Shown: in pieces, positions 3,957-20,227 of the stretch
How the letters are laid out: each line of letters starts with the position of its first letter
How positions within the stretch are numbered: position 1 is the first letter of the stretch
Notes under the pieces: model-generated
Databases searched by the model: none
What the model was told of the DNA's origin: nothing
The model's input: only the letters and a program-made list of their open reading frames with translations
Position numbers and translations under genes: made by a program
DNA from: a virus
Length of the DNA: 20,439 nt
IMG/VR virus record: IMGVR_UViG_3300042564_002657
Location: 1-20,439 of that record
Direction: 5' to 3' (one strand)

Positions 3957-4706
3957 TCAACTTTGTCCAGCAGCAGACAATATTAAAGTTTCCATGTCGT
4001 GTATTCTGGTTCTTGTCGTCTTGCTATTCAACACAACAAACAGCTTCTTTCTGTTACCAACATAAACGCTCATTACCAGACAGCCACCACTGGCTCGAAC
4101 GTACCCAGTTTTACTCACTAGCACATTATATTTTGCAACCAGGGGATTGGTGTTATTGAAGCGTATTTTACTTTTCTTTTTCTTTATCAATTCAACAATA
4201 GTTTGATTGCTGGCATTTACTATCATGGGGTATTTTTCCGCTGCCTGTAACAGTTTGATAAGGTCAATACCGTTGCTGATGTTGCGATTGTCTAGTCCAG
4301 TACTGTCATGAAACTCAGTATTGGTCATACCAATTACTCTTGCCTTGTGATTCATTTCCTTGATACATTCGGTATATCCCCACCGATATATTTTACACAA
4401 CATGTCAGCAGCCTGATTGTCTGAATGAATGATGGAAAGATCAAGTAATTGTCTTCGAGTGACCGTCATTCCTCTAAACTTACGTATCTTGACAGATTCT
4501 GTCATGCTCTCATTACTGTCTAGCACTACCATTGCAGTCATTAATTTAGTAATACTGGCGATGGGCTGAATTATTGTTGAGTTTTCTTGCTCAATGATGT
4601 TGCCATCACCGTCGGCTATTATCCAGACTTTTGCTTGGATGTTTGCGGCAAAAAGTGAGTCGCACACAATGGCCAGCATTGTGATAATTAAAATTTTTTT
4701 TATCAT
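3957..4706 (-). CDS. D-alanyl-D-alanine carboxypeptidase/endopeptidase, peptidase family S11
   Basis: The protein has a hydrophobic N-terminal signal peptide (about residues 1-20, ending SLFAA) and all three penicillin-binding motifs: S51-I-T-K54 with the nucleophile Ser, S95-D-N97 and K199-T-G201. STGLDNRN (135-142) also fits the S11 family, and the lack of a long C-terminal extension resembles the PBP7/8 (PbpG) endopeptidase type more than DacA. It would cleave D-Ala-D-Ala peptides or cross-links of peptidoglycan in the periplasm. The active site looks intact. The start ATG overlaps the stop of the upstream oxygenase by 1 nt (TGATG), so translation is coupled and the two share the promoter at 5416-5444. 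A phage-encoded S11 enzyme is unusual; roles in DNA entry, wall remodelling during infection or lysis are possible. Confidence 0.88.
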   Translation of the reverse strand: MIKKILIITMLAIVCDSLFAANIQAKVWIIADGDGNIIEQENSTIIQPIASITKLMTAMVVLDSNESMTESVKIRKFRGMTVTRRQLLDLSIIHSDNQAADMLCKIYRWGYTECIKEMNHKARVIGMTNTEFHDSTGLDNRNISNGIDLIKLLQAAEKYPMIVNASNQTIVELIKKKKSKIRFNNTNPLVAKYNVLVSKTGYVRASGGCLVMSVYVGNRKKLFVVLNSKTTRTRIHDMETLILSAAGQS

Positions 4707-8150: not shown

Positions 8151-8462
8151 TTAGGTTGCTGGTTCTAGCTTAACGTTGAGTGGAAAACCATTGGTGCGGG
8201 CCAGCATGGTGGCTTCAACACCTTTTTGTTCGGCAATCTCGTAGGGCAGTGTACTAACTACGCTACTGCCTTCTTCGTGTATTTTGTGTGTGATTTCCAT
8301 AGCAGACTCTTCGCTATGATGGAAAATATTTTTGAGACTTTCAACTACAAATTCCATTGTAGTAGTATCATCGTTTAAGTATATAACATTAAACAAACTA
8401 GGAGGTTTGATATTTGTCTTAGTTTGTATTCGAGGTTTTACTATAACGTCTGTTTTGCTCAT
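8151..8462 (-). CDS. clpS: ATP-dependent Clp protease adaptor ClpS
   Basis: ClpS binds proteins with N-degrons (Leu, Phe, Tyr, Trp at the N-terminus) and hands them to ClpAP. The ClpS core is complete: PPSLFNVIYLNDDTTTMEFV (20-39) and KIHEEG (60-65). With an offset of four from E. coli ClpS, the substrate-pocket residues N30, D31, D32, T34, M36, V39, H62 and L95 all match N34, D35, D36, T38, M40, V43, H66 and L99, so N-degron binding is expected. The first 20 residues are a flexible tail that in E. coli modulates ClpA. No ClpA or ClpP is encoded here, so host partners would be needed. The gene follows hsp20 with a 62 nt gap that contains a strong hairpin; the ribosome binding site is weak (GAG close to the ATG at 8462). 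Confidence 0.93.
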   Translation of the reverse strand: MSKTDVIVKPRIQTKTNIKPPSLFNVIYLNDDTTTMEFVVESLKNIFHHSEESAMEITHKIHEEGSSVVSTLPYEIAEQKGVEATMLARTNGFPLNVKLEPAT

Positions 8463-8524: not shown

Positions 8525-8962
8525 TTACTTTGCAAATGTAATGGCGATTTTCTTGGGTTTTTGTTCTTCGGGAACAATGTGCTCAATACTGATTGCCAGA
8601 ATACCGTTTATTACAGTGGCACCCTTGACTTCCATGTGGTCAGCCAGTGGAAAGCTACGTGTAAACGTACGAGCACTAATGCCACGATAATGGTAAGTGT
8701 ACTCGTCTTTTTGTTTTTGCTCACCACGAATGGTTAACACATTTTCCTTGAATTCAATGTCCAGATCTTCTTCAGTGAAGCCAGCAACTGCCAATTGAAT
8801 AGCATAATGTGTTTCATCAATCTGCACAATATTGTGCGGAGGATAGTTTCCATCTGTTTTGCTGTTGGCAAATGTGCGATTTAGTTCGTTGAATAAACGA
8901 TCAAATCCCACGGCATGGCGATGGATAGTGGGTAAGTCAAAAGCGGTGATATAGGTTGTCAT
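8525..8962 (-). CDS. Small heat shock protein Hsp20 (IbpA class)
   Basis: An ATP-independent holdase that binds unfolding proteins and keeps them ready for DnaK. The alpha-crystallin domain spans about residues 41-130. It contains the signature A115-T-V-I-N119-G120-I-L122, the strand VLTIRGEQKQ (75-84) and the arginine-rich YRGISARTFTRSF dimer region. The C-terminal tail has the I-x-I motif in KKIAI (137-141), needed for oligomer assembly. The N-terminus with GFDRLFNELNR is typical of the IbpA class. Length (145 aa) is normal. Hsp20 is well known in T4-like cyanophages. It lies 77 nt downstream of dnaK and its leader copies features of the dnaK leader (AAGGAG sequestered by CTTGCTT, see 8969-8987). 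Confidence 0.93.
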   Translation of the reverse strand: MTTYITAFDLPTIHRHAVGFDRLFNELNRTFANSKTDGNYPPHNIVQIDETHYAIQLAVAGFTEEDLDIEFKENVLTIRGEQKQKDEYTYHYRGISARTFTRSFPLADHMEVKGATVINGILAISIEHIVPEEQKPKKIAITFAK

Positions 8963-9039: not shown

Positions 9040-10920
9040 TTACTTCGTTTCTTTAAATTCAGCATCAACTACATCGTCATCAGCCTTGGGCTGTTCCGCT
9101 GTTGTCTCTGGCTGTTGTACTTCATTAAGTATATTTGCAGCAACAAGTAGTTCGGATATCTTGGTAGTAATTAGTTCCTTGTCTGTTTCTGTAATTGTTT
9201 TTTCGAGGTTGGTGATAGCCTCATTAATTTTAGTCGTCTGATCTGCTGTTAGCTTGCCTTCCGCTTCCTTGATATCAGTCTGAACCTTGTGGATAACGGA
9301 ATCCGCTTGGTTGCGTACTTCAATCAATTCACGTTGCTTTGTATCTGCATCAGCATTGGCTTCAGCATCGCGAATCATTTCTTCAATTTGCTCTTTGCTT
9401 AGACCACTGTCAGACTTAATGGTAATCTTATTTTCTTTGCCAGTGTTTTTATCCCGGGCACTTACTTTAAGAATACCATTGGCGTCAACATCCAGCATGA
9501 CTTCCACTTGTGGTACACCACGTCGAGCAGGTTGAATTCCTTCTAAGTTGAATTCACCCAATAGTTTATTATATTGTACAAGTTCGCGTTCACCCTGATA
9601 GACTTTAATAGTTACAGCCGGCTGGTTGTCTTCGGCTGTGCTGAACACCTGACCATTCTTGGTTGGTATTGTGGTGTTCTTGGTAATTAGTTTCGTCATC
9701 ACTCCGCCCATGGTTTCGATACCTAGGCTTAGTGGTGTCACATCAAGTAGTAATACGTCTTTACGGCTACCGCCCAGCACAGCACCTTGTACTGCTGCAC
9801 CTACCGCTACTGCTTCATCCGGATTGACATCACGACGTGGTGCCCGTCCAAATAACTTTTCAACTTCTTCTTGTACTCGTGGCATACGAGTCATACCACC
9901 AACCAGGATAACTTCATCAATGTCCGTGGCTGTTACACCTGCGTCACGCATGGCAACACGGCATGGTTCAATACTGCGTTGGATCAATTCGTCTACCAGG
10001 CTTTCCAGTTTAGCACGAGTCATCTTGATGTTCATGTGCTTGGGACCTGTGGCATCTGCTGTGATATAAGGTAAGTTTACATCTGTTTGTGTGCTATTAG
10101 ATAGTTCAATCTTGGTACGCTCTGCAGCTTCTTTAAGACGCTGTAGTGCCATTACGTCTTTACTTAAATCAACACCTGATTCCTTTTTAAACTCGGTAAT
10201 CAAGTAATTCATAATGCGTTGGTCAAAGTCTTCGCCGCCTAGGAATGTATCACCATTAGTGGAAAGGACTTCAAATTGTTTATCACCGTCCACATTGGCA
10301 ATATCAATAATACTAACGTCAAAGGTACCACCACCCAGGTCGTACACAGCGATCTTGCGATCAGCTTTTTCATTTTTGTCCACTCCATATGCCAATGCTG
10401 CTGCAGTTGGCTCATTGATAATACGTAATACTTCTAGTCCGGCAATTGCTCCGGCATCTTTGGTTGCTTGACGCTGACTATCATTGAAGTAAGCAGGTAC
10501 AGTAATAACTGCCTGTGTTACTTCGTGTCCCAGATAATCTTCTGCGGTCTTCTTCATCTTGCGAAGAACTTCAGCACTGATTTGCGGAGGTGCTAGTTCA
10601 GTGTCGTTGGCTGATACCCATGCATCACCGTTTGCACTTTCAATGATCCGGTATGGCATGAGATCAATATCTTTTTGTACTGCTTCTTCTTTAAATTTAC
10701 GGCCAATTAATCTCTTGGACGCATAGATAGTATTTTTGGGGTTTGTTACTGCTTGACGTTTTGCGCCGGCACCTACAATAATCTCTTCAGCAGTATAGGC
10801 AACGATACTGGGTGTAGTACGTGCGCCTTCACTATTTTCAATTACTTTTGGGATTCCGTTTTCGATTACTGCTACGCAGCTATTAGTGGTACCGAGATCG
10901 ATACCGATGATTGTGCTCAT
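9040..10920 (-). CDS. dnaK: Full-length chaperone DnaK (Hsp70)
   Basis: DnaK is the ATP-driven Hsp70 chaperone that folds and disaggregates proteins with DnaJ and GrpE. The nucleotide-binding domain has [14 protein letters not shown] (5-18), the catalytic Lys K69, [19 protein letters not shown] (139-157), [12 protein letters not shown] (168-179) and YDLGGGTFD with T199. The hydrophobic linker [10 protein letters not shown] is at 389-398, then the substrate-binding domain, an alpha-helical lid (about 505-605) and the C-terminal tail DVVDAEF. At 626 residues it is nearly as long as E. coli DnaK (638), and it shares the insert region and tail of the Pseudomonadota proteins, so it looks like a fairly recent transfer from such a host. 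No dnaJ or grpE is in the window. The ATG at 10920 follows AAGGAG; it is first in the chaperone set and may have its own late-type promoter. Confidence 0.97.
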
Positions 10921-10992: not shown

Positions 10993-11340
10993 TTATTTAT
11001 CAGGTTGTTTTCTAAATAAAAAATAGTCCAATACACCATTGACTTTTTTAGCAGGGCTTAGAAAATTGTTGGGTCCATAGTAATAGGTTTTTTCTTGACC
11101 GCATAGCCATTGATTACCTTCTGTGACATTTACTATGACTGCATCGGATCGCAACACAGCCGCGGCAAGCCATTCGGCATTTTGCATTTCATCTCGATGC
11201 AGATAGATGTTATACATTTCGTCACTGTTCTCACACATACGGGCCAATAACTCTACATCGTCCATGGTGGCATCAACCACAGTCACCGTGTGCAGTTCAT
11301 CATCAACAAAGTCCGGAGGAGTTATAAAGTTACTATGCAT
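10993..11340 (-). CDS. Unknown protein of marine T4-like phages, 115 aa
   Basis: The protein begins MHSNFITPPDFVDDELHTV and continues with an alternating strand/helix pattern (VTVVDATMDDVELLARMC, then MYNIYLHRDEM, then SDAVIVNVTE) that suggests a small alpha/beta fold. The C-terminal YYYGPNNFLSPAKKVNGVLDYF is a segment I associate with a conserved unknown family of T4-like cyanophages. No catalytic motif is recognisable. Its ATG overlaps the end of the large membrane protein gene by 8 nt, so it belongs to the same transcript; a clear ribosome binding site is missing, which points to translational coupling. It lies immediately upstream of the dnaK leader. Confidence 0.75.
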   Translation of the reverse strand: MHSNFITPPDFVDDELHTVTVVDATMDDVELLARMCENSDEMYNIYLHRDEMQNAEWLAAAVLRSDAVIVNVTEGNQWLCGQEKTYYYGPNNFLSPAKKVNGVLDYFLFRKQPDK

Positions 11341-12976
11341 TTTTATTTTTCAAAATATCTTCGATCTGTTGTTCAACTTGACTTTGTTCAGCGTCATTTA
11401 GGTCTTCAACTTCATATTCACCGGCTTCTAATTTTTGTATCAGATGCTGAATGTAAGCCTGATTATAAGTGTAGCTGTCAGTAGAGTTTTTATCAATCTC
11501 GATCCACTTAACGCTATTCCATTTAAACAGTCTCTCAGGCAAATAGTCGGTACGTATGAACATGTCGCCCTTGGCCGGGCTTGGCGGAAACGCTTCACCA
11601 AATCCACATTGTGCAGCATTACTGTTAGATATCTCATTGTCAGCCTGAATTGATAACTCTGGGTGCAAACTGGAAAATGCATCTAAATTATAAACCTTGC
11701 CTTGATACCGAACAGCATAGTCAGCACCGCGACGTATCGGGGTATTGAATGGGTCAACAGGCTTTACAGGCTCAGGCGGAGTTTCTTCGACTGTTTGTTC
11801 AACTTCTTTGGGTGCATTATCTTGAAATAATTTTACCAGTGCTTCGTGTGAAGCTTGTTCAGCAGCTTGGTCTTCGGCTTGTTCTTTGTGTTCATCTATA
11901 ACACGCTGTGCCCACATTTCTTCATTTTCCAAAACTGGAATATCTAAATCTTCCGCATGATATTCATCAGCATCAATTGTCTGTGCTGTAGCCTGTGCGT
12001 TGGCAAAGAACTGCTCCGTCTCAGGCTCTATAACTTCAACAACAGGTTCCAATTGGTCTACAGCAGCATTGGCTGCAATGGCACGTATCTGTTCCAATTG
12101 TTCTTGGGTTAGTTCAGGATAAGGTTCATAAGGAGGTGGCGACTCTTCTGGTGGTTCCTCTGTCGCAGTGGCTACAGGAACGGTTTGTTCTTCCTCATCA
12201 TGCACCAGACCTTTTTTATCTTCCCTGGCCCATTCCAGTTGTTTATTGGATGCTAGAATCAAACATAAGGCCAAAGGATCAAAAACTATTACAATAAGAA
12301 TAATGATCCAACTCACAGCACGTTCCAATACATTAGCATCCGGATTGTCACCGTAGACAAAGGCTGCAATGTATTTTACTGGACCAACATCGGCTTCGAT
12401 CTTTCTAAACTCTGCTGCCAGTGGCGCACGTTCTTGTTGTAATTTGGCAATCTTCTTTTGTGCAGTTACAATTTCTGTTTGTAGACTGGAACGTTCCTTG
12501 GCCTGTTGCTTACGTACTAGTACCGCTCTTTCAGCGCCACGTTCGGTATCTGTACGACCAAGCAAACTGTCTACCTGTGCATCCATTTGCAGTAATGCTC
12601 GTTTGTTTGCGTCTATGTTGTCTTTTTCGGTTTTGATCTGTTCGTCGTAGATGGCAACTTTACTCATTGCATCGCCACTGACTAGATTTTGATCACTGTG
12701 TGCCTTGGATAAGAATCCAAAAATACCCATGCTGGTTAATAGCATCAGGAACACAATGGCCGGAATTAGATAAGTTTTATATGCCCACGAAATTCTGGCC
12801 CAGTTATTGTGTAACCACACTGTGGCAGTAATCTTGCCAGCTTCCAATGCACCGCCCATAATAATAACAGGCACCACGGCTGCTGCAAAGATGGCTGTAA
12901 GGCCTTCAACTGAATACCATGCAGCAATAGCACTGATGGTGATGGCAATCACCATCATTAAGTAACCGAATATCAT
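11333..12976 (-). CDS. Large phage membrane protein with coiled coil, 547 aa
   Basis: Four transmembrane helices are visible at about 3-21, 27-45, 68-89 and 221-243. Between helices 3 and 4 lies a long coiled coil (about 105-195) rich in Lys, Glu and Gln, facing one side of the membrane. After helix 4 comes an acidic, Pro/Glu-rich stretch (about 258-430) of low complexity. The C-terminal domain (about 430-547) has SPAKGDMFIRTDYLPERLFKW, and then KWIEIDK and TDSYTYNQAYI, a module I have seen in membrane proteins of marine myoviruses; its role is unknown. The ATG at 12976 lacks a ribosome binding site. A consensus-like promoter lies 30-58 nt upstream. A role in membrane remodelling or in anchoring replication or virion assembly is possible, but none is demonstrated. 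Confidence 0.85.
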   Translation of the reverse strand: MIFGYLMMVIAITISAIAAWYSVEGLTAIFAAAVVPVIIMGGALEAGKITATVWLHNNWARISWAYKTYLIPAIVFLMLLTSMGIFGFLSKAHSDQNLVSGDAMSKVAIYDEQIKTEKDNIDANKRALLQMDAQVDSLLGRTDTERGAERAVLVRKQQAKERSSLQTEIVTAQKKIAKLQQERAPLAAEFRKIEADVGPVKYIAAFVYGDNPDANVLERAVSWIIILIVIVFDPLALCLILASNKQLEWAREDKKGLVHDEEEQTVPVATATEEPPEESPPPYEPYPELTQEQLEQIRAIAANAAVDQLEPVVEVIEPETEQFFANAQATAQTIDADEYHAEDLDIPVLENEEMWAQRVIDEHKEQAEDQAAEQASHEALVKLFQDNAPKEVEQTVEETPPEPVKPVDPFNTPIRRGADYAVRYQGKVYNLDAFSSLHPELSIQADNEISNSNAAQCGFGEAFPPSPAKGDMFIRTDYLPERLFKWNSVKWIEIDKNSTDSYTYNQAYIQHLIQKLEAGEYEVEDLNDAEQSQVEQQIEDILKNKNA

Positions 12977-13005: not shown

Positions 13006-13034
13006 AATATAGCAGATTACTGTGATGTTGTCAA
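13006..13034 (-). promoter_or_regulatory. Sigma70-type promoter for the large membrane protein
   Basis: TTGACA (13034-13029) and TATATT (13011-13006) are separated by 17 nt; predicted start is near 12999, about 23 nt before the ATG. The -35 box overlaps the end of the micro-ORF at 13017-13091. A second TTGACA at 13007-13002 with TACACT would start inside the gene and is less likely. Confidence 0.65.
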
Positions 13035-13741: not shown

Positions 13742-14041
13742 TTAACTCCTTGCTTGCCAATCCGGGAACATACTGGGTGCATTGGTTCTAATATCTGCAG
13801 GATTTTTGCTGTGATGTACATCGTCGCCGGCTGGAAATGCTGCACCAAGAGGAGCAATAACTTCGGCAGGCTCATTTGCATACTCCGGTGTATCAGTGCC
13901 GAAAATACCAGCAAGCTTTTGCATATCAGCAAGTTCTTGTTCGGGTTGAGCAGATATTTCTATAGCAACCACTGGCTCAGCAGGAGCTTCTGCGCTGTCG
14001 ATAATATCTAATACACCACGTATAATATCTGTAATCTTCAT
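13742..14041 (-). CDS. Unknown acidic protein next to the ILEI-domain gene, 99 aa
   Basis: No known domain. The N-terminus MKITDIIRGVLDIID is an amphipathic helix, followed by an Ala/Pro/Glu-rich middle and a C-terminus with HSKNPADIRTNAPSMFPD that resembles the end of an unassigned family in T4-like cyanophages (DIRVKDPSMYP type), from memory. The start is ATG at 14041, with AGGA 7 nt upstream; a TTG 6 nt earlier is less likely. The AGGA is part of the palindrome at 14047-14060, so translation may be controlled. It is the first gene after the terminator at 14068-14093. Confidence 0.75.
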   Translation of the reverse strand: MKITDIIRGVLDIIDSAEAPAEPVVAIEISAQPEQELADMQKLAGIFGTDTPEYANEPAEVIAPLGAAFPAGDDVHHSKNPADIRTNAPSMFPDWQARS

Positions 14042-14290: not shown

Positions 14291-14429
14291 ACGATCTTTC
14301 CCTATGTTTGGTGTTGCGTTGATAACGTGTTTTATTTTCTACGGTACGACTCCGAAACGGTGACCCAGTCTCAAACAGAACACGATGTGCTCGAGTGCGC
14401 TGTACAGGAAGTGTTTTGGTCTTGATCAT
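14280..14429 (-). CDS. Unknown very basic small protein, 49 aa
   Basis: The ATG at 14429 overlaps the TGA of the upstream gene in an ATGA, the classical arrangement for translational coupling. The frame of 49 codons is very rich in Arg, Lys and Thr (for example RTRAHRVLFETGSPFRSRTV) and ends inside the next gene. The high positive charge suggests nucleic-acid binding, as in many small phage proteins, but no motif is recognised. No separate ribosome binding site is seen. Confidence 0.55.
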   Translation of the reverse strand: MIKTKTLPVQRTRAHRVLFETGSPFRSRTVENKTRYQRNTKHRERSYDA

Positions 14430-14827
14430 GATTGGTTATTTACTTCTTCTTTAGTAAAAATAAAACGGTACAAGGGTGTGCATTGCGTCAAGAAGTCCGG
14501 ACCCACATCCAGACTAACATAGTTTTCACCTTGCATACCTTGCTCGGTATAACTGATGTCAGCAAGTGCCTGAACACTAAAACCCAGAGATGCCATACAA
14601 CTACGGAACGACTTGAGCCAGGCCTGGTCGGAATAAATCAATCCGTCGGATTCAACGTTCCATTCACTTGGATCAAAGTAGGCACGTAGTTCACCGTACT
14701 CGTACTCACCATCGTCGCTAACCGAGGCCACTGCTACACGATTAACACAAACAGTTTTTGCCACTGTGCTCCAATAACCCGTGCCGTAGGTACTGGTAAC
14801 GAAATTAACCTGGCGATCGAATTTCAT
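14426..14827 (-). CDS. Unknown protein, 133 aa
   Basis: No family recognised. The protein begins MKFDRQVNFVTSTYGTGYW and seems to be of mixed alpha/beta type without signal peptide or membrane segment; a repeated aromatic pattern (GEYEYGELRAYFDPSEW) occurs at about 40-56. The start ATG at 14827 is preceded by AAGGAG at 9 nt. The stop overlaps the following small gene in ATGA. It belongs to the block of small genes from 16511 to 14111, which are likely early or middle genes acting on the host, by position only. Confidence 0.75.
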   Translation of the reverse strand: MKFDRQVNFVTSTYGTGYWSTVAKTVCVNRVAVASVSDDGEYEYGELRAYFDPSEWNVESDGLIYSDQAWLKSFRSCMASLGFSVQALADISYTEQGMQGENYVSLDVGPDFLTQCTPLYRFIFTKEEVNNQS

Positions 14828-14838
14828 GTTGTGTCTCC

Positions 14839-15168
14839 TTAGTCCAGTCTGCTGCCAGCATAGGCACTCAGTCCCAGTTTATCACGCAGCACCTGGGCCA
14901 TGGCATCAGCACCGGCTTCTTTGATGTCGATATTCTGCACACCCAGTCCACCCGGATTCCACATGCTCAGGCACTTGGGCTTGTGATCCTTCTTGAAGCC
15001 TGCGGCAATCAGCTCCTTGGCTACCTTGCTGTTGGTACGATCCACAAATACTTCCACCCAGGCGAAACCACAGGCATACTGATCGCCACCTATCTTGTTG
15101 TACATTTCTTTGCTGGCACGTTGTGCTTCAGCCAGGGCTTCACTAACTACAGATTTAATGTCGCTCAT
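14839..15168 (-). CDS. Conserved phage protein of unknown function, 109 aa
   Basis: The N-terminal helix (SVVSEALAEAQRASKEMYNK) is followed by CGFAWVEVF (33-41) and the C-terminal part contains SMWNPGGLGVQNIDIKEAGADA and ends in LSAYAGSRLD. This set, with FAWV, the WNPGG.GVQN(I/M)D segment and the final AYAGSRLD, recurs in a family of unknown phage and plasmid proteins that I recall from large phages; no activity is known to me. The ATG at 15168 overlaps the previous stop (TAATG) and is preceded by GGAGACTGC, a ribosome binding sequence repeated at the next two junctions. Confidence 0.8.
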   Translation of the reverse strand: MSDIKSVVSEALAEAQRASKEMYNKIGGDQYACGFAWVEVFVDRTNSKVAKELIAAGFKKDHKPKCLSMWNPGGLGVQNIDIKEAGADAMAQVLRDKLGLSAYAGSRLD

Positions 15169-15371
15169 TATGCAGTCTCCAGATCTTGATAATTCATCAC
15201 AGCAGCATTGAACTGTTCCAATGCCTCGTAGTATTCGGTTTCGTAAAACTTAAGATTCTTCTTGTAAATGCCCGAACCGATGTCAAGTTCGTAAGTGTAT
15301 TCACCGGTGCGCCAAAGTATAACACGCTCATCACGGCCGTTACGGCCATCTGTAATAAATTGAATACTCAT
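15168..15371 (-). CDS. Unknown small protein, 67 aa
   Basis: No family recognised. The N-terminal half (FITDGRNGRDERVILWRTGEY) looks like beta strands, the C-terminal half (YETEYYEALEQFNAAVMNYQ) like one acidic amphipathic helix. The ATG at 15371 overlaps the previous stop (TAATG), after AAGGAGATTGC. It lies in a run of five small genes with almost no spacing. Confidence 0.75.
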   Translation of the reverse strand: MSIQFITDGRNGRDERVILWRTGEYTYELDIGSGIYKKNLKFYETEYYEALEQFNAAVMNYQDLETA

Positions 15372-15580
15372 TATGCAATCTCCTTGGCTTCCACCAATTG
15401 CTTGATGTTGGTTGAGTAAAAAGGCAGACGTACAGTACTGCGTGTCGACACCACTTCCACCGAGAGGTTGCGGAAGTTATCGACCACCTCACGAACAACA
15501 ACTTCCGTGCCCTTGCGAATTATATTACCTTCCGATGCAACATCCATCGTAAGAGCTCCAGCCACACTATCGATTACCAT
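15371..15580 (-). CDS. Unknown small beta-rich protein, 69 aa
   Basis: No family recognised. The sequence alternates hydrophobic and polar residues (EVVVREVVDNFRNLSVEVVS), as expected for a small beta barrel or SH3-like fold, and ends in a short helix. There is no signal peptide or membrane segment. The ATG at 15580 follows TAAGGAGACTGTATA, the same junction element as at the next two genes. Confidence 0.72.
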   Translation of the reverse strand: MVIDSVAGALTMDVASEGNIIRKGTEVVVREVVDNFRNLSVEVVSTRSTVRLPFYSTNIKQLVEAKEIA

Positions 15581-15592
15581 TATACAGTCTCC

Positions 15593-15910
15593 TTAAACAG
15601 TGTATGTGTGACCAGTTAACGCATTTACTACTTTGGCACCTGCACCAAAAGCAGCCCTCATTTCAAAACGTTCTTCTTGGCTAGGACCTTTGTAGTTTTT
15701 GCAATAAGCTTCAAGTGCAACACGGTCTTCTTCGTCACGTTGCACCAGGCTGTTGTTTTGTTCTTGTTTGGTAATCCAACCTGCATCCACAAAGTTCTGC
15801 AACATGTCTGCAAAAGGAATACGATCGTTACTATTCCAACGAACCACAGGACCAGTTTCGCTGTTGGTTTCATCGATGTAAAATTCTGTACTGTATTTTG
15901 CGTCTAACAT
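15593..15910 (-). CDS. Unknown protein under promoter/operator copy A, 105 aa
   Basis: No family recognised. Acidic, mostly helical, with IPFADMLQNFVDAGWITKQEQ (about 32-52) and EEDRVALEAYCKNYKGPSQEERF. The N-terminus is FYIDETNSETGPVVRW, a likely beta hairpin. The start ATG at 15910 has AAGGAG 6 nt upstream and lies about 25 nt after the predicted start of its own promoter at 15942-15970. It leads the run of small genes to 14111. Confidence 0.75.
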   Translation of the reverse strand: MLDAKYSTEFYIDETNSETGPVVRWNSNDRIPFADMLQNFVDAGWITKQEQNNSLVQRDEEDRVALEAYCKNYKGPSQEERFEMRAAFGAGAKVVNALTGHTYTV

Positions 15911-15928
15911 TTTGCGCTCCTTACTAGT

Positions 15929-15970
15929 TAATATACTTCGTATTCTAGCAAAACTGGCATTTTAGGTCAA
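15929..15970 (-). promoter_or_regulatory. Promoter/operator copy A
   Basis: TTGACC (15970-15965), 17 nt, TAGAAT (15947-15942). A palindrome (15947-15929) overlaps the -10 box: arms TAGAATAC and GTATATTA with a GAA spacer. The unit is a near copy of the one at 16235-16276, including the spacer sequence. Confidence 0.78.
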
Positions 15971-15976
15971 CCTTTT

Positions 15977-16216
15977 TTAGAACTCCGCCGTCAGTTCACC
16001 AGTTGCATCTTTTTTAACAAACACTTCGCTGGTTTGCTCGTTCTCGTACACATTGTCGAAATACTTAACAGAATAGCAAAAATTACCGCTGCTGGTAAAT
16101 CCCAGAAACTTAACAGAATTAAAACTCATTCCAGTATAGCCGCTGCGGGCAAGAATGTTGCTGATTTCGTAACGGTCCAGGCTTGTATACTTGCTGAGTT
16201 CGGCGGCTGTTATCAT
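15977..16216 (-). CDS. Unknown protein under promoter/operator copy B, 79 aa
   Basis: No family recognised. The N-terminus MITAAELSKYTSLDRYEISNILARSGYTG resembles a helix-turn-helix (two short helices around a TSLDRYE turn), so DNA binding is conceivable; the remainder is beta-rich (SVKFLGFTSSGNFCYSVKYFD). I place the start at the ATG at 16216, with AAGGA 8 nt upstream, not at the earlier ORF start at 16276, since that would lie within the -35 box of its own promoter. It could be the regulator of the twin operators, but this is only suggested by position and the possible helix-turn-helix. Confidence 0.7.
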   Translation of the reverse strand: MITAAELSKYTSLDRYEISNILARSGYTGMSFNSVKFLGFTSSGNFCYSVKYFDNVYENEQTSEVFVKKDATGELTAEF

Positions 16217-16234
16217 TTGCTGTTCCTTGCTAGT

Positions 16235-16276
16235 TAATATACTTGGTATATTAGCAAATCTGGCACTTTGGGTCAA
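16235..16276 (-). promoter_or_regulatory. Promoter/operator copy B with perfect palindrome
   Basis: TTGACC (16276-16271), 17 nt, TAATAT (16253-16248). The palindrome at 16253-16235 has identical arms TAATATAC and GTATATTA around CAA and covers the -10 box and the start site, the usual layout for repression. It starts 8 nt beyond the stop of the membrane protein gene. Confidence 0.82.
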
Positions 16277-16283
16277 CCAGTTT

Positions 16284-16511
16284 TTATGTTGCTAATTTAA
16301 CAACAAGTCCCACGGTGTAGATTAGCAACAATGTTGCATTAATAACAATCAGGCTCCATTCCCGCCAGATTACAGAAACAATAAGCCAGAAAAATGCTCC
16401 CAGGTTGAGTAGAGCAGGCCCTTCAGGATACATGTTGACGCTGGTGCAAATGGCTCCCGCAATAGTTACGAAAGTAGCAAGCCATTTAAGATACCAGATT
16501 GGTGTTTTCAT
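16284..16511 (-). CDS. Small membrane protein of marine phages, 75 aa
   Basis: Two or three hydrophobic helices span about residues 10-25, 35-50 and 53-72; the start MKTPIWYLKW and the WREWSLIVIN segment match a small membrane protein family widespread in marine myoviruses (I believe DUF6552, not verified). Function unknown; a role in the inner membrane is likely. The start is ATG at 16511; the preceding TTG codon is less likely. No ribosome binding site precedes it, and the predicted transcription start falls on the A of this ATG, so the message is probably leaderless. Confidence 0.75.
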   Translation of the reverse strand: MKTPIWYLKWLATFVTIAGAICTSVNMYPEGPALLNLGAFFWLIVSVIWREWSLIVINATLLLIYTVGLVVKLAT

Positions 16512-16517
16512 CAAGGA

Positions 16518-16546
16518 ACTGTAACAGATTGAGTGTTTTCAGTCAA
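16518..16546 (-). promoter_or_regulatory. Promoter for a probably leaderless mRNA
   Basis: TTGACT (16546-16541), 17 nt, TACAGT (16523-16518). Seven nt after the -10 box is the A of the start codon at 16511. Overlaps the divergent promoter at 16529-16557. Confidence 0.6.
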
Positions 16547-16576: not shown

Positions 16577-18601
16577 ATGAGCAATAAAATAATTCCCATA
16601 AAAACTCGCACTAACAAAGACATTCAGGAAACCTTACGCAACCCCGTTGACTCAAACATGGGCAGTTCGCTGAGTAAGTTACATGAAGAATTCAATAGTA
16701 CTGACATGCCCGAGGACAAATATCTGGCCACAGCAAAAGGCATGCTCAAATATGCCATGCCTACAGCTCAGAAAAATTTGTCCACAGTAAAAATTGAAAA
16801 CGTCACCAGGCGCACACACATTGCACTGATTCTCATGCCCAAGTGGGCCGTATTTTTTGCGCCATACAACATTGCCCGACTGGCTGCAGTTGCCAGAGCT
16901 GCAGGTTATCGAACCAGTGTGTTTGATTGGAATGTTGACACCTGGCACAAACTTAAAAAAGTTTTACCAGAAGATCCTTACGAAGGTCATGGATCAAGAG
17001 ATTATCTCTGGCTTGACGACATGTACGAAACCAGATTGCAATCACACGTTGAGCCCATACTGGAAGAATACTTAACAAAAATTATAGAACTAAAACCAGA
17101 TGTAGTGGGATTTAGTTTGTATTACACCAATGTGTTTCCCACACTGTGGTTGGCAAAAAAGATCAGGCAGCATCTACCCGATACCAAGATAATCGCCGGC
17201 GGATCACATATACAATGGAATCCAGATCCTTTTCCTGAATTTGATCATGTGGTCAAAGGCGAAGGCGAAGAACTACTATTACAGATGTTGGATGATATCG
17301 AAAATGGTGTTCCCTTGACCGAGTATCAGTACAATGCAGACAAAACAAAACGAATCAATCTGGATCAATTGCCATTTCCCGACTATTCGGATCTAGACGT
17401 AAATGCTTATATGATACCCAATGCCATAAGCTCGGAATTGAGTCGAGGTTGTGTGGCTAAATGCACATTCTGCCAGGAAACACATTACTGGAAATATCGT
17501 AGTAGACAGGCACCCTTTATTCTGGAAGAAGTTGAGCATCAATATCGAACCTACGGCACAAATGTGTTCTGGTTTATTGACAGTCTGGTCAACGGAAACA
17601 TCAATGAGCTACGTGCGTTTGCACTGGGTGTTGTGGAACGCGGACTAAAAATCAAGTGGGAAGGATATGCTCGTTGCGACGAACGTATGGATCTGGAATA
17701 TTATCAAGACTTAAAAGCCAGTGGTTGCATGGCACTGAATTACGGTATAGAGAGTGGTAGTCAGCGTGTGCTTGATGCCATGCGTAAAAATGTCACTATA
17801 GCCGAAGTTGAAAAAAACTTGCGCGATGGGGCATCAGTTGGGATTGAGGCTCAATCAAACTGGATGCTGTGTTATCTCAACGAAGAGTCAGTGGACTTTG
17901 CCAAGACAATGACCCTGGCCTGGAGAATTCAAGACTGCCGGTTAACTTCAATGGCCCGCGGTACCATGAACATTGGACCCGGCAGAATCGACGATGATAG
18001 AGAATTTTATAATGTTCATCCAAAATATTTTTGTCTGAGTTGGGCAACCAAAGATCTTGGTAATACAAAAATACACAGATTGATAAGATTCAAGAGCTTC
18101 AATATCTTTGTTGAACAAATGCCCGCATATGGACAATGGGACTCAGACAAAAGCGGCAGATTAAAAACTCAGTACCAAGTTAACTATAATAATCAAAACG
18201 TTCAACGAGTCAACATTAAGGAATACCTGGACGTACCGTACGAAGAATTTGATTACGAAATTATTAAAGATCCCAGTCTGGATTGTGTGTTTATGCGAAC
18301 TGTAGTAAATGAACCCTGGGCTCTTGTGAGATCATTATGGCGTAGTAGACACCGACAGGGCATGGAATTCTCTGTTAAATTTGATCCCGAGTGGGACTTA
18401 AATGAATACGGCAATAGGCTTGCTGATAAATTTACTGCTAATTACTATTTTAAAATTGATGATGCAGGCAATTGGACTGCCAATGTCACTGCTAAATTTG
18501 ATTGCCCAGAAAACCCACATGCTCCTTGGTCTCCAGAAAATGATGTTAGGTCAGACTATAACATAGACTTGGCCTGGTCAGGATCTGGAAACTGGAATTA
18601 A
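16577..18601 (+). CDS. B12-binding-type radical SAM enzyme, 674 aa
   Basis: Residues about 80-240 form a Rossmann-like domain (IALILMPKWAVFFAPYNIARLAAVARAAGY, PDVVGFSLYYTN, IIAGGSHIQW, HVVKGEGEE) of the cobalamin-binding type seen before radical SAM domains. The canonical DxHxxG histidine for base-off B12 is not visible, so cobalamin binding is uncertain. The radical SAM motif is C292-V-A-K-C296-T-F-C299 in SRGCVAKCTFCQ; the core runs to about 470 with NYGIESGSQRVLDAM as the late motif. The last 180-200 residues are a large extension of unknown type. It should carry out methylation or another radical reaction on an unknown substrate. It is the only gene on its strand in this half; the ATG lacks a good ribosome binding site, and its TAA overlaps the stop of the convergent gene. 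Confidence 0.85.
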   Translation: MSNKIIPIKTRTNKDIQETLRNPVDSNMGSSLSKLHEEFNSTDMPEDKYLATAKGMLKYAMPTAQKNLSTVKIENVTRRTHIALILMPKWAVFFAPYNIARLAAVARAAGYRTSVFDWNVDTWHKLKKVLPEDPYEGHGSRDYLWLDDMYETRLQSHVEPILEEYLTKIIELKPDVVGFSLYYTNVFPTLWLAKKIRQHLPDTKIIAGGSHIQWNPDPFPEFDHVVKGEGEELLLQMLDDIENGVPLTEYQYNADKTKRINLDQLPFPDYSDLDVNAYMIPNAISSELSRGCVAKCTFCQETHYWKYRSRQAPFILEEVEHQYRTYGTNVFWFIDSLVNGNINELRAFALGVVERGLKIKWEGYARCDERMDLEYYQDLKASGCMALNYGIESGSQRVLDAMRKNVTIAEVEKNLRDGASVGIEAQSNWMLCYLNEESVDFAKTMTLAWRIQDCRLTSMARGTMNIGPGRIDDDREFYNVHPKYFCLSWATKDLGNTKIHRLIRFKSFNIFVEQMPAYGQWDSDKSGRLKTQYQVNYNNQNVQRVNIKEYLDVPYEEFDYEIIKDPSLDCVFMRTVVNEPWALVRSLWRSRHRQGMEFSVKFDPEWDLNEYGNRLADKFTANYYFKIDDAGNWTANVTAKFDCPENPHAPWSPENDVRSDYNIDLAWSGSGNWN

Positions 18602-19930: not shown

Positions 19931-20227
19931 TCAACCACAAATTACGTCTGGACTTCCAGCGGCACAAAAATCTCCGCAACTGATTGAATCACCAATTCTG
20001 GCCAAGGCCAAGCCATTGACAAATACTGTTGATGAGCCAGAACTCTGATTACTACCATGTGTGTCTGGTGGTCCTGGGTCAGTATGATCAGGCCATGCAT
20101 CAGTGACCCTGACTGTACCCTGCCCATTTACAAAAGTATCAGTACTGCCGTTGGGGGTACTGGGACGAGGAACATATCCGCCATGGCCAGTACTGGGGTC
20201 AACATTGGTTCTAGTTACTGGTGGCAT
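19931..20227 (-). CDS. PAAR-domain protein, tail spike tip, 98 aa
   Basis: PAAR proteins form a sharp, metal-holding cone that caps the central spike of contractile tails and pierces the host envelope. The size (98 aa) is usual. The PAAR repeat features are visible: FVNGQGTVRVTD (32-43), TVFVNGLALARIGDSISCG (about 67-85) and a final GSPDVICG, plus several His and Cys that can bind iron or zinc. T4 gp5.4 is the classical member, which supports a myovirus. The ATG at 20227 overlaps the stop of the upstream gene (TAATG). An exact TATAAATA late promoter box at 20286-20293 lies 58 nt upstream, but within coding sequence. Confidence 0.85.
   Translation of the reverse strand: MPPVTRTNVDPSTGHGGYVPRPSTPNGSTDTFVNGQGTVRVTDAWPDHTDPGPPDTHGSNQSSGSSTVFVNGLALARIGDSISCGDFCAAGSPDVICG

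Follow-up and report, generated by a model that had tools for sequence, protein, structure and literature searches.

The window analysed here is a stretch of 20,439 nucleotides (positions 1 to 20,439 of IMG/VR virus record IMGVR_UViG_3300042564_002657) from an uncultured bacterial virus. Two promoter units, A (15908-15970) and B (16214-16276), both lie on its minus strand at a spacing of 306 nt, with the same leader and Shine-Dalgarno sequence downstream. In unit B, the -35 box TTGACC (16276-16271) is followed by a spacer of 17 nt, CAAAGTGCCAGATTTGC, with a TGn element at 16256-16254, and by the -10 box TAATAT (16253-16248), after which comes ACCAAGTATATTAACTAGCAAGGAACAGCAAATG. The Shine-Dalgarno sequence AAGGA is at 16228-16224 and the ATG at 16216, so that the full order is TTGACC-CAAAGTGCCAGATTTGC-TAATAT-ACCAAGTATATTAACTAGCAAGGAACAGCAA-ATG. 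Unit A is built in the same way, with TTGACC at 15970-15965, the 17-nt spacer TAAAATGCCAGTTTTGC, TGn at 15950-15948, the -10 box TAGAAT at 15947-15942 followed by ACGAAGTATATTAACTAGTAAGGAGCGCAAAATG, AAGGAG at 15922-15917 and ATG at 15910 (TTGACC-TAAAATGCCAGTTTTGC-TAGAAT-ACGAAGTATATTAACTAGTAAGGAGCGCAAA-ATG). The extended -10 triplet directly 5' of the -10 box is TGC in both. Of the 17 spacer positions, 14 are identical, and a count by eye gives 46 identities over the 54 nt of the units; the leader in the units of this phage is AAGTATATTAACTAG. Direct reading thus confirms what a preliminary description of this DNA had reported, with correct coordinates: twin units sharing TTGACC, a nearly identical 17-nt spacer, the -10 box and the leader up to the Shine-Dalgarno sequence.

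With near-consensus -35 and -10 hexamers about 17 nt apart, both units are of the sigma70 type. The -10 box of B, TAATAT, agrees with the consensus at four of six positions and is weaker than that of the family described below. Transcription would start near 16240-16241 from B and near 15934-15935 from A. The window was scored with a position model made from 59 promoters of other phages, containing no copy from this one. Unit A ranked first in the window (30.3) and unit B second (22.5), against a best score of 15.5 in 30 dinucleotide-shuffled windows; a pair of such scores is far outside chance expectation.

Genes behind the promoters and elsewhere in the contig

Promoter B serves a gene of 79 amino acids (15977-16216, minus strand). 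Behind promoter A, genes of 105, 69, 67, 109 and 133 amino acids (14426-15910, minus strand) are tightly packed, with gaps of -1 to 12 nt: they either overlap or stand 11-12 nt apart. The preliminary description had given each promoter a separate small gene of its own, which holds for B but not for A, which probably drives a five-gene operon. As no terminator was seen, B would transcribe the 79-residue gene and then read on into A.

The 79-residue protein was folded together with its two homologues. The model (pLDDT 90) consists of two helices and four strands. Significant structural matches came only from a viral library and are uncharacterised proteins, from Sinorhizobium phage phiM9 and from an uncultured phage; a comparison with the PDB gave no significant match, and searches of Pfam and PHROG gave none either. 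The protein was considered as a candidate regulator and set aside: no DNA-binding regulator is among the significant structural matches, and no Pfam or PHROG family speaks for such a role.

Several other features of the contig deserve mention. Full-length genes for DnaK/HSP70 (9040-10920, 626 amino acids), HSP20 (8525-8962) and ClpS (8151-8462) are adjacent on the minus strand of this phage contig; the best matches of the DnaK in phage records are 54-69% identical, and bacterial DNA may lie behind some of these records. Immediately past the promoter cluster, the plus strand carries a gene (16577-18601) for a 674-residue radical SAM protein that includes a B12-binding domain. Further genes on the minus strand encode a D-alanyl-D-alanine carboxypeptidase-like protein (3957-4706), a UDP-glucose/GDP-mannose dehydrogenase-like protein (1499-2725) and a PAAR-motif protein (19931-20227). 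Ahead of a gene of 547 amino acids (11333-12976), also on the minus strand, TTGACA-17-TATATT with TGC before the -10 box is found at 13006-13034, followed by TAAATAAATA. A similar arrangement occurs in a relative at L013:9823, which may make this a conserved promoter that carries a T4-late-like motif; across the window, T4-late-like TAAATA motifs occur at chance level.

A promoter family in related phages

One contig (L004) comes from an almost identical phage and carries both units without change. Relatives of the 105-residue gene behind promoter A are encoded at 23 further loci, in other phages, and are 49-79% identical to it. Directly before these homologues, at the right distance, TTGAC and a -10 box (TTGAC-17-TATAAT type) are present at all 23 loci except L026 and L028, which were left out as the upstream DNA was cut or the gene start could not be read. 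Homologues of the 79-residue gene (66-67% identity) were found in two phages, L073 and L074, where a promoter stands both before and after the gene, and the gene that follows is different from that in the window. The promoters therefore stay while the genes change, a pattern that, judged from sequence, would fit module shuffling. Among cultured phages, no DNA match of the region and no match of the 105-residue protein was found. The exact promoter consensus is absent from phages phiM9, CRP-9 and Seuss and occurs four times in Mosig EXVC030M.

The family is large. Among the relatives' loci examined, 299 distinct sites have a Shine-Dalgarno sequence and a start codon, 272 of them with a spacer of 17 nt. 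The exact motif TTGAC-N18-TATAAT has 4-39 copies per contig in 12 relatives (0-2 in the reversed control), for example 16 in a contig of 149 kb, 13 in one of 83 kb and 10 in one of 157 kb, all on one strand and with 0-1 in the reversed control; in the nearest relatives, exact-consensus copies are all or mostly on one strand. The 20 kb window of the present phage has two clear copies and one weak one.

Within one phage, the copies resemble each other. In the 149-kb contig, the leader ACTTGTATAGAAACTAAAAAGGAG is letter-identical in eight of the copies retrieved. Spacer identity is 0.57 within phages versus 0.43 between them, and leader identity 0.63 versus 0.45; over the 15 nt that precede the -35 box, the values are 0.35 and 0.33. 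The likeness thus covers spacer and leader and hardly extends upstream, from which it follows that the repeated unit runs approximately from the -35 box to the Shine-Dalgarno sequence. Such likeness would be expected if units were copied or homogenised within a genome, although shared selection by one host polymerase may be its source instead. The higher agreement of spacers within phages would also suit a reading in which the spacer motif AAAAT-N-CC-N-TTTG before the -10 box, and not the palindrome described below, is a regulator site common to all copies of a phage; some spacers are themselves palindromic, for instance AAATGGCCCATTT. We consider this unlikely, because the leader is equally conserved and copying of whole units explains the same spacer pattern; spacer symmetry, moreover, is not in excess of that in halves recombined within phages (P 0.14-0.41).

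The weak copy in the window, a possible third member of the family, is at 16509-16546 on the minus strand. It reads TTGACT, 17 nt ending in TGT, TACAGT, 6 nt and then the ATG (16511) of a DUF6552 gene. Its score is 12.7, and about 0.2 such scores are expected per shuffled window. The spacing to the ATG is the same as in leaderless copies of relatives, so this promoter, too, may give a leaderless mRNA. In the family, 16 of 282 promoters have their ATG exactly 6 nt downstream of the -10 box, and 12 of these lack a Shine-Dalgarno sequence; neighbouring distances have counts of 0-3. A peak at this distance is expected if transcription begins with the A of the ATG, and it supports the start-site position given above. 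The subset with the ATG at 6 nt includes, besides 16509-16546 (minus strand), L014:5588, L083, L034:4289 and L048:3265. Several of the genes behind leaderless copies, in different phages, encode similar proteins with a YIG motif, such as MKTRKRRQDTKHAVYMLVNTNTNESYIGIT, possibly GIY-YIG nucleases. Other members (L057:4023, L059:3244, L062:1206, L066:3267, L031:809, L087, L092 and L105) have a hairpin of varying sequence at or near the predicted transcript start, for example TGCGAAATAATTCGCA and GTTAGAGATAGTTCTAAC; about 20-40 nt after it, a conserved gene of about 115-140 amino acids of the GxSKLxGxxKVRFAND type follows.

The palindrome over the -10 box

In unit B, the -10 box and the start of the leader form a perfect palindrome of 19 nt (16235-16253) with arms of 8 bp; in unit A, the palindrome at the same place (15929-15947) has two mismatches. 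A sequence search bore out the preliminary description on both points. That description went on to propose that the two copies have different affinity for one repressor. In the form considered here, a dimer of a phage or host repressor would bind the palindrome where it overlies the -10 box and start site and shut both promoters, B more tightly than A. In lambdoid-type repressor operators, a palindrome lies over the -10 box and start site of a phage promoter. The palindrome in the window, perfect in B and degenerate in A, occupies this classic position, but unlike those operators it is not conserved in relatives, and no repressor gene was found in the window. Relatives keep the promoter and not the palindrome, which is present at the promoters of none of the readable relatives of the 105-residue gene (L004 apart). 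Absence of conservation in relatives is the outcome that the preliminary description had itself named as speaking against its proposal. Elsewhere in the relatives' contigs, there are two matches with one mismatch, of which the one in G006, on reading, proved to lack a -35 box at the proper position. The evidence for a conserved operator sequence is negative. In the 20 kb of the genome that the window covers, regulator families matched none of the proteins scanned with Pfam, and the product of 15977-16216 is not recognisably DNA-binding.

Taken alone, the palindrome is not exceptional. The window contains eight perfect inverted repeats with arms of at least 8 nt and loops of up to 5 nt, and 40 shuffles gave a mean of 3.0 (range 0-9). 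Copies A and B are related to each other, and their two palindromes are therefore not two independent events. A further match with two mismatches, at 14009-14027, falls within a frame that is probably coding. Of the two arms, the left one is formed by the -10 box and the right one belongs to the leader, which is nearly constant within a phage and variable between phages. The arms in B match because its -10 box deviates from the consensus. The palindrome would thus have arisen when the leader of this phage, drifted to AAGTATATTAAC, came by chance to complement the -10 box; by the ruler of the leaderless ATGs, transcription of A and B would start inside the right arm.

Symmetry might still be selected without the sequence being kept. 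This was addressed by comparing observed arms with arms formed by recombined halves of different promoters. In a first compensation test, the observed arms were no longer than the joined halves (P 0.17). In an enlarged set of 42 distinct sites, the mean arm was slightly above that of recombined halves (P 0.01-0.12 depending on the cut, uncorrected), but long arms were not in excess. A shorter symmetric core, ATAC-N2-3-GTAT, occurs in 10 of the 42 distinct copies of the group, two of the ten being those of the window, and some phages have other symmetric sequences at the -10 region (TAATATATGTATATTA in G004, CAATACTTGTATTG in G006). The excess of symmetry that the -10 region shows across phages is retained within phages only when the cut lies near the -10 box. 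The sequences hence give at most weak evidence for selected symmetry or compensating change between the arms, and we regard the pair of operators as very unlikely.

Symmetry at the -10 region is also met in pseudo-symmetric promoters with divergent transcription, which are common in bacteria (PMC12825309). In B, the -10-like TAATAT is present on both strands, from which polymerase might also start an antisense transcript. The two start sites would then be only about 6-8 bp apart, whereas bidirectional start sites are most often separated by 18 bp, with 10 and 23 bp also common (PMC12825309). By eye, neither a -35 box nor a TGn is evident in the reverse direction of B, and the symmetry is absent in relatives. 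Bidirectional transcription from B appears very unlikely.

Early promoters and related cassettes

We propose, with a probability of roughly 85%, that A and B are members of a family of strong sigma70-type early promoters. This reading is carried by direct observations: the anatomy of the promoters, their membership of the family, its repetition, the similarity of copies within a phage and the absence of the palindrome in relatives. The common layout consists of the -35 box TTGACC, a 17-nt spacer, the extended -10 element TGn, the -10 box, an A+T-rich leader and a Shine-Dalgarno sequence. The sigma70-type polymerase of the host would recognise the -35 box, TGn and -10 box directly and use the units right after infection. 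Early timing is suggested by the likeness to T4 early promoters. Phages of this group would furnish many of their short operons and small accessory genes with one unit each. Duplication or recombination would keep the stretch that runs from the -35 box through the Shine-Dalgarno sequence alike inside a given phage, with drift from one phage to the next.

The operator reading, though plausible, thereby gives way to that of a repeated early-promoter cassette. Such a cassette flags the accessory genes in this group of phages and provides a tested motif for finding them. If homogenisation within genomes is confirmed, the cassettes would show how large phages insert or swap accessory genes with expression kept. 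More tentatively, and in our estimate with odds clearly below even, promoter-plus-leader cassettes in large uncultured phages may be copied and homogenised per genome and provide three kinds of 5' end: a Shine-Dalgarno leader that stays constant, an mRNA that has no leader and begins with its AUG, and a leader with a 5'-terminal hairpin that compensating changes preserve. If true, such a cassette would be a standard socket for the exchange of accessory genes.

Early promoters of phage T4 are excellent sigma70 sites that combine the -35, TGn and -10 elements with additional consensus positions (PMC2988021). Like the family described here, they are strong, numerous in the genome and often placed before small genes of unknown function (PMC2988021). 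Unlike them, the present group mostly has TTGACC as its -35 box, its leaders are near-identical within one phage and a subset of its members seems to give leaderless mRNAs. The promoter early stem-loop cassettes (PeSLs) of T4-type phages (Arbiol 2010; Comeau 2014, as cited in PMC4503421) are, in the outline given in that citing paper, likewise repeated regulatory cassettes between small genes, linked with gene shuffling. A repeated cassette separating shuffled genes is what we find after the 79-residue gene: two phages retain the promoter there and have a next gene different from that of the window. A terminator-like stem-loop lies just upstream of 20 of 222 family sites (one in the shuffled control). 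A PeSL-type terminator stem-loop was looked for and not found within the 80 nt ahead of B or, in a scan of the region, near A or B, and the two units are therefore not filed as PeSLs. The closest known kinds are the early promoters of T4 and the PeSL cassettes of T4-type phages.
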